From contig CAJYAJ010000004.1 of assembly GCA_913065005.1 (NCBI GenBank), positions 1-53,984 of the forward strand: a DNA stretch of 53,984 nucleotides. Reading direction: 5' to 3'. This document shows positions 9,555 to 37,284 of this stretch, piece after piece; the first letter of the stretch is position 1, and each line of letters begins with the position of its first letter. Under the pieces are notes generated by a model. It ran no database searches. It worked only from the letters and a program-made list of their open reading frames with translations, and was not told the origin of the DNA. Position numbers and translations under genes: made by a program. This DNA is from an uncultured Verrucomicrobiota bacterium (GTDB lineage: Bacteria > Verrucomicrobiota > Kiritimatiellia > Kiritimatiellales > Pontiellaceae).

Positions 9555-10718
9555 ATGGAGTTAGAGATTCTATTTGAATTAGCCGTGATCATGGTCAGTG
9601 CAGCTGTATTGGGCACCCTCTTTTTATTTTTACGCCAACCTATTGTTATTGCATATATTGCGATTGGATTTGCCTTAGGTCCAGGCGGATTAGGCCTCAT
9701 CAAAGAGACCACCCATCTGGAGCAAATTGCTCATGTTGGTGTCATCTTATTGCTCTTTCTTATCGGTCTCAATCTACAACCACAAAAGCTACTTGCCATC
9801 TTTCAAAAAACAGCCCTCCTGACTTTGTCGACCTCGCTTTTATTTGCCCTTGCGGCAACCACTTTTGCCCTACTTCTTCAATTTTCACTCTTCGCTTCGC
9901 TCATTGTTGGCGCTGCCATGATGTTTTCCAGCACCGTTGTTGGGTTAAAATTAGTCCCCACCACCACACTACACCACAAACGAACAGGTGAAGTCATGAC
10001 AGGAGTATTGCTCCTCCAAGACCTCTTGGCCATCCTCATAATTCTTCTACTGAGCGGTGGAGGATCAGAACATCCAATCATGGCATTCGGCTTGCTATTA
10101 CTGAAGTTCATAGCACTCGCCATTGCACTCTTTCTCGGTGTTCGCTGGATCATGCTACCTCTACTTACCCGTTTTGATGTTGTTCAAGAATATACATTTG
10201 TCGCCACACTCGGATGGTGCCTACTCGGTGCAGAAGTCGCTCATTTAGTAGGCCTTTCCTATGAGATCGGCGCCTTCACCGCAGGCATCTCGATAGCCTC
10301 ATCACCTGTTGCACTTGCCATTGCTGAACACCTCAAACCTCTTCGAGAATTCTTTCTCATTCTCTTTTTCTTCGCAATCGGAGCTCGATTGAACCTCCAA
10401 ATCAGTCCTCTTCTGCTTGCGGCAGCGATTATCTTCGGCACCCTACTCGTACCTCTGAAGGCGTTCATCTTCAGAAAAGCCTTTGTATGGAGTGGTGAAA
10501 AAGAGTCTGCATCCAAGGAACTTTCCGTTCGTCTTTCGCAAGCCAGTGAATTTTCACTTCTGGTTGTTTTAGCCGCAACAAGTGGAGATTGGTTGCATTA
10601 CGAACAAGGTATGATGATTCAAATTGCCACCTTAATCACCTTTATCTTTTCCACCTACTGGACCGTTCTTCGCTATCCAACCCCCATCTCTGCGAGCCGT
10701 CATCTTCTGCAAGATTAA
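9555..10718 (+). CDS. Monovalent cation:proton antiporter-2 family transporter (KefB-like)
   Basis: This 387-residue protein of about 12 membrane segments has the CPA2 pattern: an N-terminal AAVLGTLFLFLRQPIVIAYI, a GFALGPGGLG turn, HVGVILLLFLIGL, a central MMFSSTVVGLKL with LLLQDLLAI (acidic ion-binding residue), and YEIGAFTAGISIA. It ends soon after the last helix and lacks the C-terminal TrkA-N/RCK domain of KefB/KefC. Expected job: exchange of Na+ or K+ for protons across the inner membrane. Ion specificity cannot be told. Confidence 0.88.
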   Translation: MELEILFELAVIMVSAAVLGTLFLFLRQPIVIAYIAIGFALGPGGLGLIKETTHLEQIAHVGVILLLFLIGLNLQPQKLLAIFQKTALLTLSTSLLFALAATTFALLLQFSLFASLIVGAAMMFSSTVVGLKLVPTTTLHHKRTGEVMTGVLLLQDLLAILIILLLSGGGSEHPIMAFGLLLLKFIALAIALFLGVRWIMLPLLTRFDVVQEYTFVATLGWCLLGAEVAHLVGLSYEIGAFTAGISIASSPVALAIAEHLKPLREFFLILFFFAIGARLNLQISPLLLAAAIIFGTLLVPLKAFIFRKAFVWSGEKESASKELSVRLSQASEFSLLVVLAATSGDWLHYEQGMMIQIATLITFIFSTYWTVLRYPTPISASRHLLQD

Positions 10719-30635: not shown

Positions 30636-30727
30636 GATCCCAGTCTGCCTCGACCTCCATACAGATGCAACTCGACATCTTTCTTTTCCCCATTGCGCTT
30701 TTCATCCACCACGCTATCATCGCCAAC

Positions 30728-31492
30728 ATGATCGATATATTACTCTGCAACGACGACGGTATACATGCCCCCGGCATCTACGAACTCCACCAATCACTTC
30801 AACCAATCGCATCCATTGATCTTATTGCTCCTGATGCAGAACGCAGTGCGGCTGGCCATGCGATCACCCTGACCGACCCTCTCAAAGTGATGCCCATCGA
30901 AAAAAACGATCAACCATTTGGTTTAGCCGTAAGCGGCACCCCTGCCGACTGCATTAAACTATCGCTTTGTCACTTACGTAAAACAAATCCACCCGATCTG
31001 GTGGTCAGCGGTATTAATTTAGGATCCAATACCGGTATTAGTGTTTTATATTCAGGAACCGTCTCTGCCGCCAGCGAAGCCGTAATTCTAGGCATTCCCG
31101 GAATCGCCATCTCACTTTGTACCTATCATAATCCTCATTGGGAAACAGCCGCCCACGTTGCACGTGAGATCGTTAAAAAACAAAAAAAAGACCCCTTGCC
31201 ACCCGGCGTCCTTCTCAATGTAAATGTGCCTAATGTGCCTCTCAACGAATTAAAAGGATTTCAAGTGGCAAGAATGGGGCGATCTCGATTTGTTGAGCGA
31301 TTTAGTACACATCAAGACCCACGCGGAAACACCTACTACTGGCTCGACGGCGATCTAGAACTTCTAGACGATCGACCTAATACCGATGTCCATGTGGTAG
31401 AAGCTGGATTTGCATCTCTGACACCAATTCATATAGACCTCACAGCCGAAAGTGCCATAGAACAACTTACTCATTGGAACAAAACCTTTTAA
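30728..31492 (+). CDS. surE: 5'-nucleotidase SurE
   Basis: SurE is a metal-dependent nucleoside-monophosphate and polyphosphate phosphatase. I place the start at the ATG giving MIDILLCNDDGIHAPGI, since the longer frame from 30665 adds 21 residues not found in the family. The metal site is NDDG; further motifs are PDAERSAAGHAIT, GTPADCIKLSL, and VVSGINLGSNTGISVLYSGTVSAASEA. Length 254. Its TAA stop shares TTAA with the lipB stop on the other strand. Confidence 0.95.
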   Translation: MIDILLCNDDGIHAPGIYELHQSLQPIASIDLIAPDAERSAAGHAITLTDPLKVMPIEKNDQPFGLAVSGTPADCIKLSLCHLRKTNPPDLVVSGINLGSNTGISVLYSGTVSAASEAVILGIPGIAISLCTYHNPHWETAAHVAREIVKKQKKDPLPPGVLLNVNVPNVPLNELKGFQVARMGRSRFVERFSTHQDPRGNTYYWLDGDLELLDDRPNTDVHVVEAGFASLTPIHIDLTAESAIEQLTHWNKTF

Positions 31493-32199
31493 AATCGAGG
31501 CGGATCGCAAGCCATCAAAGCTTCTGGCAAAAGATCCATCGATTGATACCGTATCAAATTTCGTCCCATCACCTCTTCGAAACAGTCCAAAAGTTTTGAC
31601 CCCACAGCCGGCATGGAAGGCATATCTTCACCCAGTAATTTTGATAACGTAGTCACAGGTTCTCCTTCCAACCCACAAGGTACAATGGTCTCGAAACCCG
31701 CTAACTCGTTTTCAACATTAAAACTCATTCCATGAAACGAAACCCACCGTTTAAGTCGAAAACCAATAGCCGCAATTTTACCCTGCTCCGTCCAAGTTCC
31801 CGACTTCCCTTCCCGCCGGAAACCATCCACACTAAAGGTAGCTAAAGTCTGAATCGCGATCTCTTCCAAATTAAATAAATAGCCGTGCGCATCCGCCTCA
31901 TTTCCACCCAAATGTAAAATAGGATACAAGACCCACTGGCCCGGGCCATGAAACGTGACATCGCCACCCCGCTCCACCTGAAAAAGATCAATCCCTAGAT
32001 CTGCATACTCCTGTTCACTCTTCAGCAGATAATTATCACGCCCACGATTTCCCAACGTAACCGTGGGTGTATGCTGAAGTAAAACAACGGTATCCGGAAT
32101 TTTTCCCGCCTGTCTAGCCGCCAACAAACGATACTGAAATAATAGCCCTGCTTCATATGCAACAGGTTCATCAAAAGTTATAGACCACGCGTTATCCAT
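31489..32199 (-). CDS. lipB: Octanoyl-[acyl-carrier-protein]:protein N-octanoyltransferase LipB
   Basis: LipB moves octanoate from acyl carrier protein to lipoyl domains such as GcvH, the first step of lipoate assembly. The 236-residue protein has LLQHTPTVTLGNRG, GGDVTFHGPGQWVLYPI, KIAAIGFRLKRWVSFHG (with the catalytic lysine region) and GFETIVPCGLEGEPVTTL (with the active-site cysteine). The gene starts 2 bases after a terminator-like hairpin that ends gcvH. There is no clear ribosome binding site in front of its ATG. LipA is not in the window. Confidence 0.94.
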   Translation of the reverse strand: MDNAWSITFDEPVAYEAGLLFQYRLLAARQAGKIPDTVVLLQHTPTVTLGNRGRDNYLLKSEQEYADLGIDLFQVERGGDVTFHGPGQWVLYPILHLGGNEADAHGYLFNLEEIAIQTLATFSVDGFRREGKSGTWTEQGKIAAIGFRLKRWVSFHGMSFNVENELAGFETIVPCGLEGEPVTTLSKLLGEDMPSMPAVGSKLLDCFEEVMGRNLIRYQSMDLLPEALMACDPPRF

Positions 32200-32201
32200 A
32201 C

Positions 32202-32225
32202 AAAAAAGGGAGGCTCAACCCTCCC
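32202..32225 (-). terminator. Rho-independent terminator after gcvH, immediately before lipB
   Basis: On the minus strand GGGAGG, a 6-base loop (GTTGAG) and CCTCCC are followed by six T. This is the shape of an intrinsic terminator. It sits between the gcvH stop and the lipB ATG, ending 2 bases before the latter. It could end gcvH transcription or act as an attenuator for lipB. Confidence 0.75.
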
Positions 32226-32249
32226 TCAAATCCTTTAACATATTCACCA

Positions 32250-32633
32250 TTATGACTGCGGACAAATTTCTTCATACGAATTTGCATCCATCAAAACATC
32301 CAACTCCGATTCATCCATCACTTTTAACTTAAATAACCAACCAGCACCAAAGGCATCCGCATTAATCGTTTCTGGAGCATCTTCAAGAACCGGATTGATC
32401 TCCACAATCTCACCCGCAATCGGCGCATATACATCCGCAGCCGCCTTCACAGATTCCACCACAGCCGCTTCATCACCCGCAGCAAAAGTAGTCCCTACTT
32501 CCGGCAACTCAACAAACGTTAAATCAGACAACTGACTTTGTGCAAAATCCGTAATCCCAATCGTTGCAACTTCACCCTCAAACGAAACCCACTCATGTGA
32601 CTTTGAATAGAAAAAATCTTCTGGTATAGCCAT
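32250..32633 (-). CDS. gcvH: Glycine cleavage system H protein
   Basis: GcvH is the lipoyl-carrying shuttle of glycine cleavage. The 127-residue protein has FYSKSHEWV, ATIGITDFAQSQLSDLTFVELPEVGT, and the lipoylation segment AAVVESVKAAADVYAPIAGEI with the modified lysine in ESVKA. AAGGAG lies 6 bases before the ATG. No gcvT or gcvP is visible nearby, so here it may also serve as the lipoyl relay protein for other enzymes. That is inference. Confidence 0.95.
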   Translation of the reverse strand: MAIPEDFFYSKSHEWVSFEGEVATIGITDFAQSQLSDLTFVELPEVGTTFAAGDEAAVVESVKAAADVYAPIAGEIVEINPVLEDAPETINADAFGAGWLFKLKVMDESELDVLMDANSYEEICPQS

Positions 32634-32662: not shown

Positions 32663-32736
32663 TGGAGGTGCGGACCGGATTCGAACCGGTGTTCATGGAT
32701 TTGCAATCCAGCGCCTAACCACTTGGCTACCGCACC
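32663..32736 (-). tRNA. tRNA-Cys (anticodon GCA)
   Basis: A 74-base cloverleaf reads on the minus strand from GGTGCGG (32736) to the paired CCGCACC, discriminator U and an encoded CCA (32665-32663). The anticodon arm is CTGGA-TTGCAAA-TCCAT (GCA), the T arm has GGTTCGAATCC, and the D arm has AGCCAAGTGGTTAGG. It lies just upstream of gcvH, between panC and gcvH. Confidence 0.96.
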
Positions 32737-32802
32737 TCTCTTACACGACGCCGAGAATGTAATCTTCACCGCTTCGCAAGCAAATAAAAAAGCGACATAA
32801 AA

Positions 32803-35783: not shown

Positions 35784-35811
35784 AAAAAAAGGCCGCCCTT
35801 TCGGCGACCTT
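35784..35811 (-). terminator. Rho-independent terminator downstream of oadB
   Basis: On the minus strand AAGGTCGCC, a five-base loop GAAAG and GGCGGCCTT form a 9-base-pair stem with one G-T pair. A run of seven T follows. It lies about 20 bases after the oadB stop and should separate the oad operon from dapF. Confidence 0.85.
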
Positions 35812-35832
35812 TCAAAATCCACAAAAACCCGA

Positions 35833-37284
35833 TTAGCTCACCAATGCCAACAACACACCCGCCGCAACCGCTGAGCCGATCACACCCGCCACATTCGGGC
35901 CCATCGCATGCATCAACAAAAAGTTTTGCGGATTCGCTTCCAGCCCCACTTTGTTCGAAACCCGCGCCGCCATCGGCACCGCCGAAACGCCCGCAGACCC
36001 GATTAATGGATTAATCTTCTCTTTGCTCAACTTATTCATCAACTTCGCCAATAAAACCCCCGACGCAGTTCCAATCACAAACGCCGCCAGTCCCAAACCA
36101 AGAATCCCCAACGTTTCCACATTCAAGAATTTATCCGCCGCCAGCTTCGAACCAACCGCCAAACCCAACATAATCGTCACAATATTAATCAACGCATTTT
36201 GAGCCGTATCCGACAGACGATCCACCACACAAGATTCCTTCATCAAATTACCCAACATCAACATCCCAATCAACGGAGTTGCCGAAGGCAATAACAACAA
36301 ACAAATCACCAATACCATCAACGGAAACACAATTTTTTCCACCTTACTCACCGGACGCAACTGCTTCATCTCAATCGCCCGCTCCTCCGGCGTCGTCAAC
36401 AACTTCATAATCGGAGGCTGAATAATCGGAACCAACGCCATATACGAATACGCCGCAACAGCAATAGCCCCTAATAAATTAGGCGCCAACCGCGATGCCA
36501 AGAAAATCGCTGTCGGCCCATCCGCCCCGCCGATAATTCCAATCGCAGCCGCATCTTCAAGCGAGAACAACCCGCCCAACGAAACGGCACCCAACAACGC
36601 CAAGAAAATTCCAAACTGAGCCGCCGCGCCCAACAACGCCGTTTTCGGATTCGCCAACAGCGGACCGAAATCAGTCATCGCACCCACGCCCAAAAAAATC
36701 AACAACGGGAAAACGCCCGACTCAACACCCACCGTATAGAAATAATACAAAAACCCACCCGGCTGACCCGGCATCGGCTCTCCCGCAATACCCGCCACAG
36801 GAATGTTCGTTAAAATAGCACCAAATCCGATCGGCAATAACAGCAAAGGCTCAAATCCCTTCGCAATAGCCAAATAAATCAAACCCAGCCCCACGAAAAT
36901 CATAATAAACTGGCCAACCCCTTTCGGAAGCAACGCCTGCTCATTAAACCCCTTCAAACGCGCTTCTGCCAACAACTCCCGATACGGCGCTAGCTCCGCC
37001 TCAGAAATACCATGAGCCTTCGCATCCGACAGAACCTTCACCACCCCCGCAAAATGACCTGCAGAAAGTTCCGCATCTACCGTCTTTGCCAAGGCACTCC
37101 GATAAGCCGCTTCCTTCTCTTCCGCAGTCTGCGGATTAAAGAAACGATAAACACCCGTCTCCTTCCAAAGTTTATTAAACCCCTCTGCAATCGAGATGCT
37201 CTCACGGCTCTCGGCCGCCTCAACCGCCGGAGCACCTCCCAAGAGAACCCCCGCAACCGCTACCACTAACAATCCTTTTTTCAT
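35833..37284 (-). CDS. oadB: Na+-translocating oxaloacetate decarboxylase-type beta subunit with extra N-terminal domain
   Basis: The membrane subunit decarboxylates the carboxybiotin and pumps Na+. It has the family marks [38 protein letters not shown] (the Asp-containing ion site) and a C-terminal [17 protein letters not shown]. At 483 residues it is about 50-100 longer than usual. Residues 1-23 look like a signal peptide (VEA-AE cut), followed by a helical stretch up to about residue 115. The family start [10 protein letters not shown] is separated from the next family block, [17 protein letters not shown], by about 70 extra residues. The ATG at 37284 has GGGAG in front; a GTG at 37302 is possible. 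Confidence 0.88.

Follow-up and report, generated by a model that had tools for sequence, protein, structure and literature searches.

How lipB is expressed when a transcription terminator lies almost directly in front of its start codon is the question raised by the gcvH–lipB locus of an uncultured Verrucomicrobiota bacterium (Kiritimatiellales, Pontiellaceae; assembly GCA_913065005.1), which we analyzed on a stretch of 53,984 nucleotides, hereafter the window (contig CAJYAJ010000004.1, positions 1 to 53,984). The first-pass annotation had named the two genes as those of a lipoyl carrier and of the enzyme that acylates it, and both names were borne out: the products passed the cut-offs of the NCBIfam equivalogs TIGR00527 (GcvH, 155.3 bits vs 115.85) and TIGR00214 (LipB, 145.6 bits vs 83.55), and the top matches of LipB came from Pontiellaceae and other Kiritimatiellales. 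The lipB ATG is the correct start: the frame is closed upstream by a TGA inside the hairpin loop, and the N-terminal residues M-(D)-N-A-W are conserved. The source genome also encodes lipA and gcvP, but on other contigs. In the neighboring surE, the ORF is extended at its N-terminus by approximately 22 residues, and conserved similarity sets in at an internal methionine (MIDILLCNDDG), which is likely the true start. The layout of the locus is given in Table 1.

Table 1. Features of the tRNA-Cys–gcvH–lipB locus in the window
Feature	Position	Strand	Details
Promoter-like site of the tRNA-Cys–gcvH–lipB unit	32756..32783	-	-35 TTGCTT 32783..32778, 16-nt spacer, -10 TACATT 32761..32756
tRNA-Cys (GCA), heads the unit	32666..32736	-	Rfam RF00005, 66.3 bits
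gcvH, lipoyl carrier protein H	32250..32633	-	TIGR00527 above cut-off; strong SD AAGGAG; stop TAA 32252..32250
Intrinsic terminator stem-loop, 8 bp, loop 6	32206..32227	-	begins 22 nt past the gcvH stop
Six-T run of the terminator	32202..32207	-	first two T pair inside the stem
lipB, octanoyl transferase	31489..32199	-	TIGR00214 above cut-off; ATG 32199..32197, 6 nt past the stem, without SD
surE	30665..31492	+	convergent with lipB, 3' ends overlap by 4 nt; neighbor in many relatives

The stem-loop between gcvH and lipB reads GAGGGAGG-GTTGAG-CCTCCCTT (−14.1 kcal/mol). Its T-run consists of the last two stem bases and TTTT, followed by GT and then by the lipB ATG, so that the GC-rich stem, longer than the 7 bp required of an intrinsic terminator, runs directly into a T-run. 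None of 200 dinucleotide shuffles of the intergenic region in the window contained as good a terminator. Two further measures were unconvincing when taken by themselves: a pattern scan found 17 terminator-like sites in 14 kb, no excess over the 16.1 expected, and the folding energy of the hairpin was not decisive (z = −1.72). We therefore relied on comparative evidence to decide whether the hairpin is real. A generic repeat terminator was considered and rejected, as GGAGG and GGGCGG stems were found only 0 to 3 times in each genome, and the gcvH–lipB locus itself accounted for many of these matches.

We compared 43 Kiritimatiellales genomes belonging to two families (f1 and f2), in 41 of which lipB was found. 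Where gcvH and lipB are adjacent, a strong terminator separates them in 32 of 36 genomes (21/25 in f1 and 11/11 in f2), with energies of −11.6 to −18.1 kcal/mol and a T-run in all 32; an equally good terminator arose in 0 to 0.5% of shuffles. The stems of f1 are AGGAGGA/TCCTCCT or AGGGAGG/CCTCCCT, and those of f2 are AGGGCGG/CCGCCCT or AGGGCAG/CTGCCCT. In an alignment registered on the T-run, with each row cut by hand to seven pairs, six of the seven pairs changed on both sides between the families in a compensatory manner, 95.2% of the cells were paired, and the covariation score was 0.677 compared with 0.298 in shuffles, none of 500 of which scored as high; a MAFFT alignment misregistered the stems and was excluded from the pair counts. 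The sequences of the loop and of the spacer between the gcvH stop and the stem vary freely among relatives. The hairpin is not a chance structure, and the terminator that had been called from a GC stem and six T in the window alone is upheld both by the shuffles and by the conservation in relatives that had been proposed as its check.

The element is dispensable, because four members of the order that have no strong terminator (absent in G002, G015, and G018, with only a weak candidate in G007) still keep gcvH–lipB. None of ten genomes of the class outside the order, in which gcvH lies just upstream of lipB, had a terminator there. This distribution is most simply read as one gain in the ancestral lineage of the order, followed by a few losses. 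One of the genomes with no terminator, G015 (loci L064 and L081), belongs to the same genus; it is AT-rich, measures 1.2 Mb, has a gcvH–lipB gap of 12 nt, and gave no gcvP match, although it keeps tRNA-Cys–gcvH–lipB together with lipA. This pattern suggests genome reduction. Several f1 genomes (loci L007, L012, and L090) carry an extra GC-rich inverted repeat of the GCAGGCG...CGCCTGC type between the terminator and lipB, followed in two of them by an SD-like site. At L090 (G024:C1:529600-531800), lipB is split into two overlapping matches that lie in different frames, the first of them interrupted by stops; either the gene itself or its assembly contains a frameshift.

In nearly all members of the order, gcvH immediately follows a tRNA-Cys gene (ARAGORN). 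The tRNA-Cys gene is in turn preceded by a promoter-like site, TTGAAA-16-TACATT, which stays in register across 38 aligned genomes of both families, with TTTAAA as the −35 variant in most f2 genomes and TTGCTT in the clade of the window. In four genomes lipB lies elsewhere and gcvH keeps its tRNA-Cys; two of these (G028 and G041) have also kept the strong terminator. Since the terminator stays with gcvH where lipB is no longer its neighbor, the hairpin is best seen, on this comparative sequence evidence, as closing the tRNA-Cys–gcvH transcript at its 3' end. Past the hairpin, no bypass promoter stood out in the genomes with a compact arrangement when they were scanned with a sigma-70 matrix, other promoter types being outside its reach; the best scores did not, as a rule, exceed those of shuffles. 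A separate lipB promoter after the hairpin was the finding that the first-pass annotation had named as fatal to its proposal. The sigma-70 scan gave no plausible candidate, and there is no room for one. The two genes share one operon, with a terminator and, by the same matrix, no promoter between them.

The start of lipB was also unusual. In the compact arrangement, found in 22 genomes, the lipB ATG lies 4 to 14 nt past the stem. The SD energy fell below −4.5 kcal/mol for lipB in only one of these 22 genomes, compared with 48 of 50 for gcvH, and the single SD-like site sits within the hairpin; in the window, the values were −3.6 kcal/mol for lipB and −7.5 kcal/mol for gcvH. This agrees with the earlier remark that lipB has no ribosome binding site of its own. 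When the gap between stem and ATG is longer, an SD-like energy was found in 6 of 11 genomes, and the energies differ from those of the compact genomes (p = 0.003). A leaderless lipB transcribed from its own promoter was discarded, as the window has no −10-like hexamer between −12 and −7 relative to the ATG. Ribosomes would use an SD-less start behind a U-rich leader, and the 22 compact and 11 longer-gap genomes form a natural test set for such starts right after a hairpin. Gene starts at most 15 nt past a co-directional terminator stem are uncommon. In a sample of 29 terminators whose next gene runs the same way, taken from three genomes in which genes were called roughly by longest ORF, there were four: lipB itself, one in G027, and two resting on doubtful GTG or TTG starts. 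At locus L200 of G027 (contig C2, around position 9797), the ATG of a 433-aa ORF lies 8 nt past a strong co-directional terminator stem, TTTTAATTATG, as at lipB.

As a control, we used the terminator at the end of the rplT operon in the same genus. Like the gcvH element, it combines a hairpin and a T-run with conserved arms and a variable loop, and its spacing is similar: the distance from stop codon to stem is 19 to 24 nt in 25 of 25 genomes for rplT and 20 to 24 nt in 21 of 21 f1 genomes for gcvH. Most of the terminators sampled from three genomes also had a similar spacing, and we therefore dropped the idea that the stop-to-stem distance at gcvH is special. The ends of groL were tried as a further control and proved too variable. 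The two elements differ in that the rplT stems are somewhat stronger (about −13 to −19.5 kcal/mol) and have no gene of the same unit so close behind them, whereas the gcvH stem is followed at once by lipB. Because this geometry is common to both ends, the gcvH element behaves like an ordinary functional terminator, and neither its GGAGG arms nor its fixed spacing calls for a special role.

Taken from the sequence, the terminator, its position, its conservation and covariation, and the promoter-like site upstream, together with the fact that neither a bypass promoter nor an SD is visible, suggest that the hairpin probably ends a tRNA-Cys–gcvH unit inside a longer tRNA-Cys–gcvH–lipB operon and that lipB is made from read-through. 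Most polymerases that start before tRNA-Cys would halt behind gcvH, and those that pass the hairpin would yield the lipB message. A single tRNA promoter would in this way give much GcvH, the substrate and carrier, and little LipB, the catalyst; since that promoter would drive both genes, throttling lipB is plausible. With a conserved terminator and no room for a bypass promoter, read-through is the simplest route to lipB expression. Termination at the hairpin would have to be efficient but incomplete, and the stem is canonical and not obviously leaky, which counts against partial termination. The terminator may also spare the convergent surE, which many relatives likewise have downstream of lipB.

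The hairpin could instead be a full terminator of tRNA-Cys–gcvH, with lipB transcribed from its own unrecognized promoter overlapping the terminator or lying inside gcvH. The element does have the geometry of the rplT operon end, it remains with gcvH in the two genomes in which lipB has moved away, and a candidate promoter in the longer gap of G042 outscored all 60 shuffles. We nevertheless regard such a promoter as unlikely, because in the 22 compact genomes a transcript starting past the left arm would place its −10 element in the GC stem or the T-run, where scores were mostly like those of shuffles, and a transcript from inside gcvH would meet the terminator too. Rather less likely still is a regulated attenuator, in which read-through would change with a signal such as the lipoate state, GcvH translation, or a protein. 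The stop-to-stem distance in f1 falls in the range in which a trailing ribosome can weaken a terminator in Escherichia coli, where terminators less than about 27 nt from the stop codon lose strength and those farther away act with full efficiency (PMC4824070), and in three f2 genomes the distance is only 2 to 3 nt. Similar spacing at rplT and at most of the sampled terminators of the genus weakens this argument. Moreover, no competing fold was found: the median stem probability was 0.96 in both the 200-nt and the full gcvH contexts, with exceptions only in G010, G012, and G022, each in one of the two. Neither an exclusive anti-terminator fold nor a conserved leader was present, the leader and spacer sequence is not conserved, and the window contains no Rfam regulatory family. 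An 11-codon ORF over the gcvH stop (MVNMLKDLREG) was set aside as a leader peptide since it is absent from the closest relative, G022, whose gcvH and lipB are 88% and 93% identical to those of the window.

A passive influence of gcvH translation on the terminator is possible in light of the E. coli work. Carried further, a ribosome at the gcvH stop would block the hairpin, so that lipB transcription would track gcvH translation, and SD-less translation of lipB would begin on the U-rich terminator tail; we hold this coupling to be about as improbable as a regulated attenuator. Finally, it is very unlikely that the hairpin acts at translation, either by hiding the GGAGG or by drawing an SD on the 5' side of the stem close to the ATG. 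GGAGG is present in nearly all f1 stems, and AAAGGA or GGAGAGG lies just 5' of the stem in three genomes (G000, G022, and G019). However, the mean energy of a hairpin-bridged SD in the 22 compact genomes was −2.34 compared with −1.78 in shuffles, not clearly better than shuffled spacers, and the arms of the rplT terminator are conserved too, so that arm conservation requires no SD role. The earlier suggestion that the GGAGG in the left arm (32224..32220) is a functional site locked by the hairpin did not hold up either: f2, the sister family, has no GGAGG in its stems, with GGGCGGC or GGGCAGT instead, and in the window 20 nt separate the end of the motif from the lipB ATG, too long a distance for an SD of lipB, an arrangement that does not fit a sequestered SD. 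The first-pass proposal of an attenuator that sets the LipB level from read-through thus survives in part: the conserved terminator and the lack of a bypass promoter favor read-through, but the lack of a competing fold speaks against regulation.

In E. coli, rpsU–T1–dnaG and rplL–rpoB are operons in which a partial internal terminator separates the gene for an abundant product from that for a scarce enzyme. The gcvH–lipB arrangement resembles these cases in the placement of its terminator and differs from them in being led by a tRNA-Cys gene; the E. coli operons consist of genes unrelated to gcvH and lipB, and further promoters or RNA processing contribute. In Ruminiclostridium cellulolyticum, internal terminators after the substrate-binding protein genes set the stoichiometry of ABC importer operons (PMC9045158). 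There, as proposed here, a single stem-loop follows the first, highly needed gene, no anti-terminator is involved, and read-through at a fixed ratio supplies the downstream genes. The R. cellulolyticum terminators were shown experimentally and have lower U content and longer stems (PMC9045158), whereas the gcvH–lipB terminator looks canonical and is followed 4 to 14 nt past its stem by an SD-less gene. The principle of internal terminators that set stoichiometry is therefore established, and gcvH–lipB would be a new example; we found no description of an internal terminator between these two genes in the literature searched, which left most subscription papers outside. If the read-through model is true, a terminator, rather than a promoter or a ribosome binding site, sets how much of an enzyme is made relative to its carrier protein, and does so in an evolutionarily conserved case. 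To our knowledge, almost no transcript data exist for the Kiritimatiellales lineage.

Elsewhere in the window, we noted a second co-directional terminator, GAAAGGTCGCC...GGGCGGCCTTTT TTT, on the minus strand at 35787-35833. It lies between a sodium-pump decarboxylase beta-subunit-like gene and dapF, whose candidate starts are TTG/GTG.
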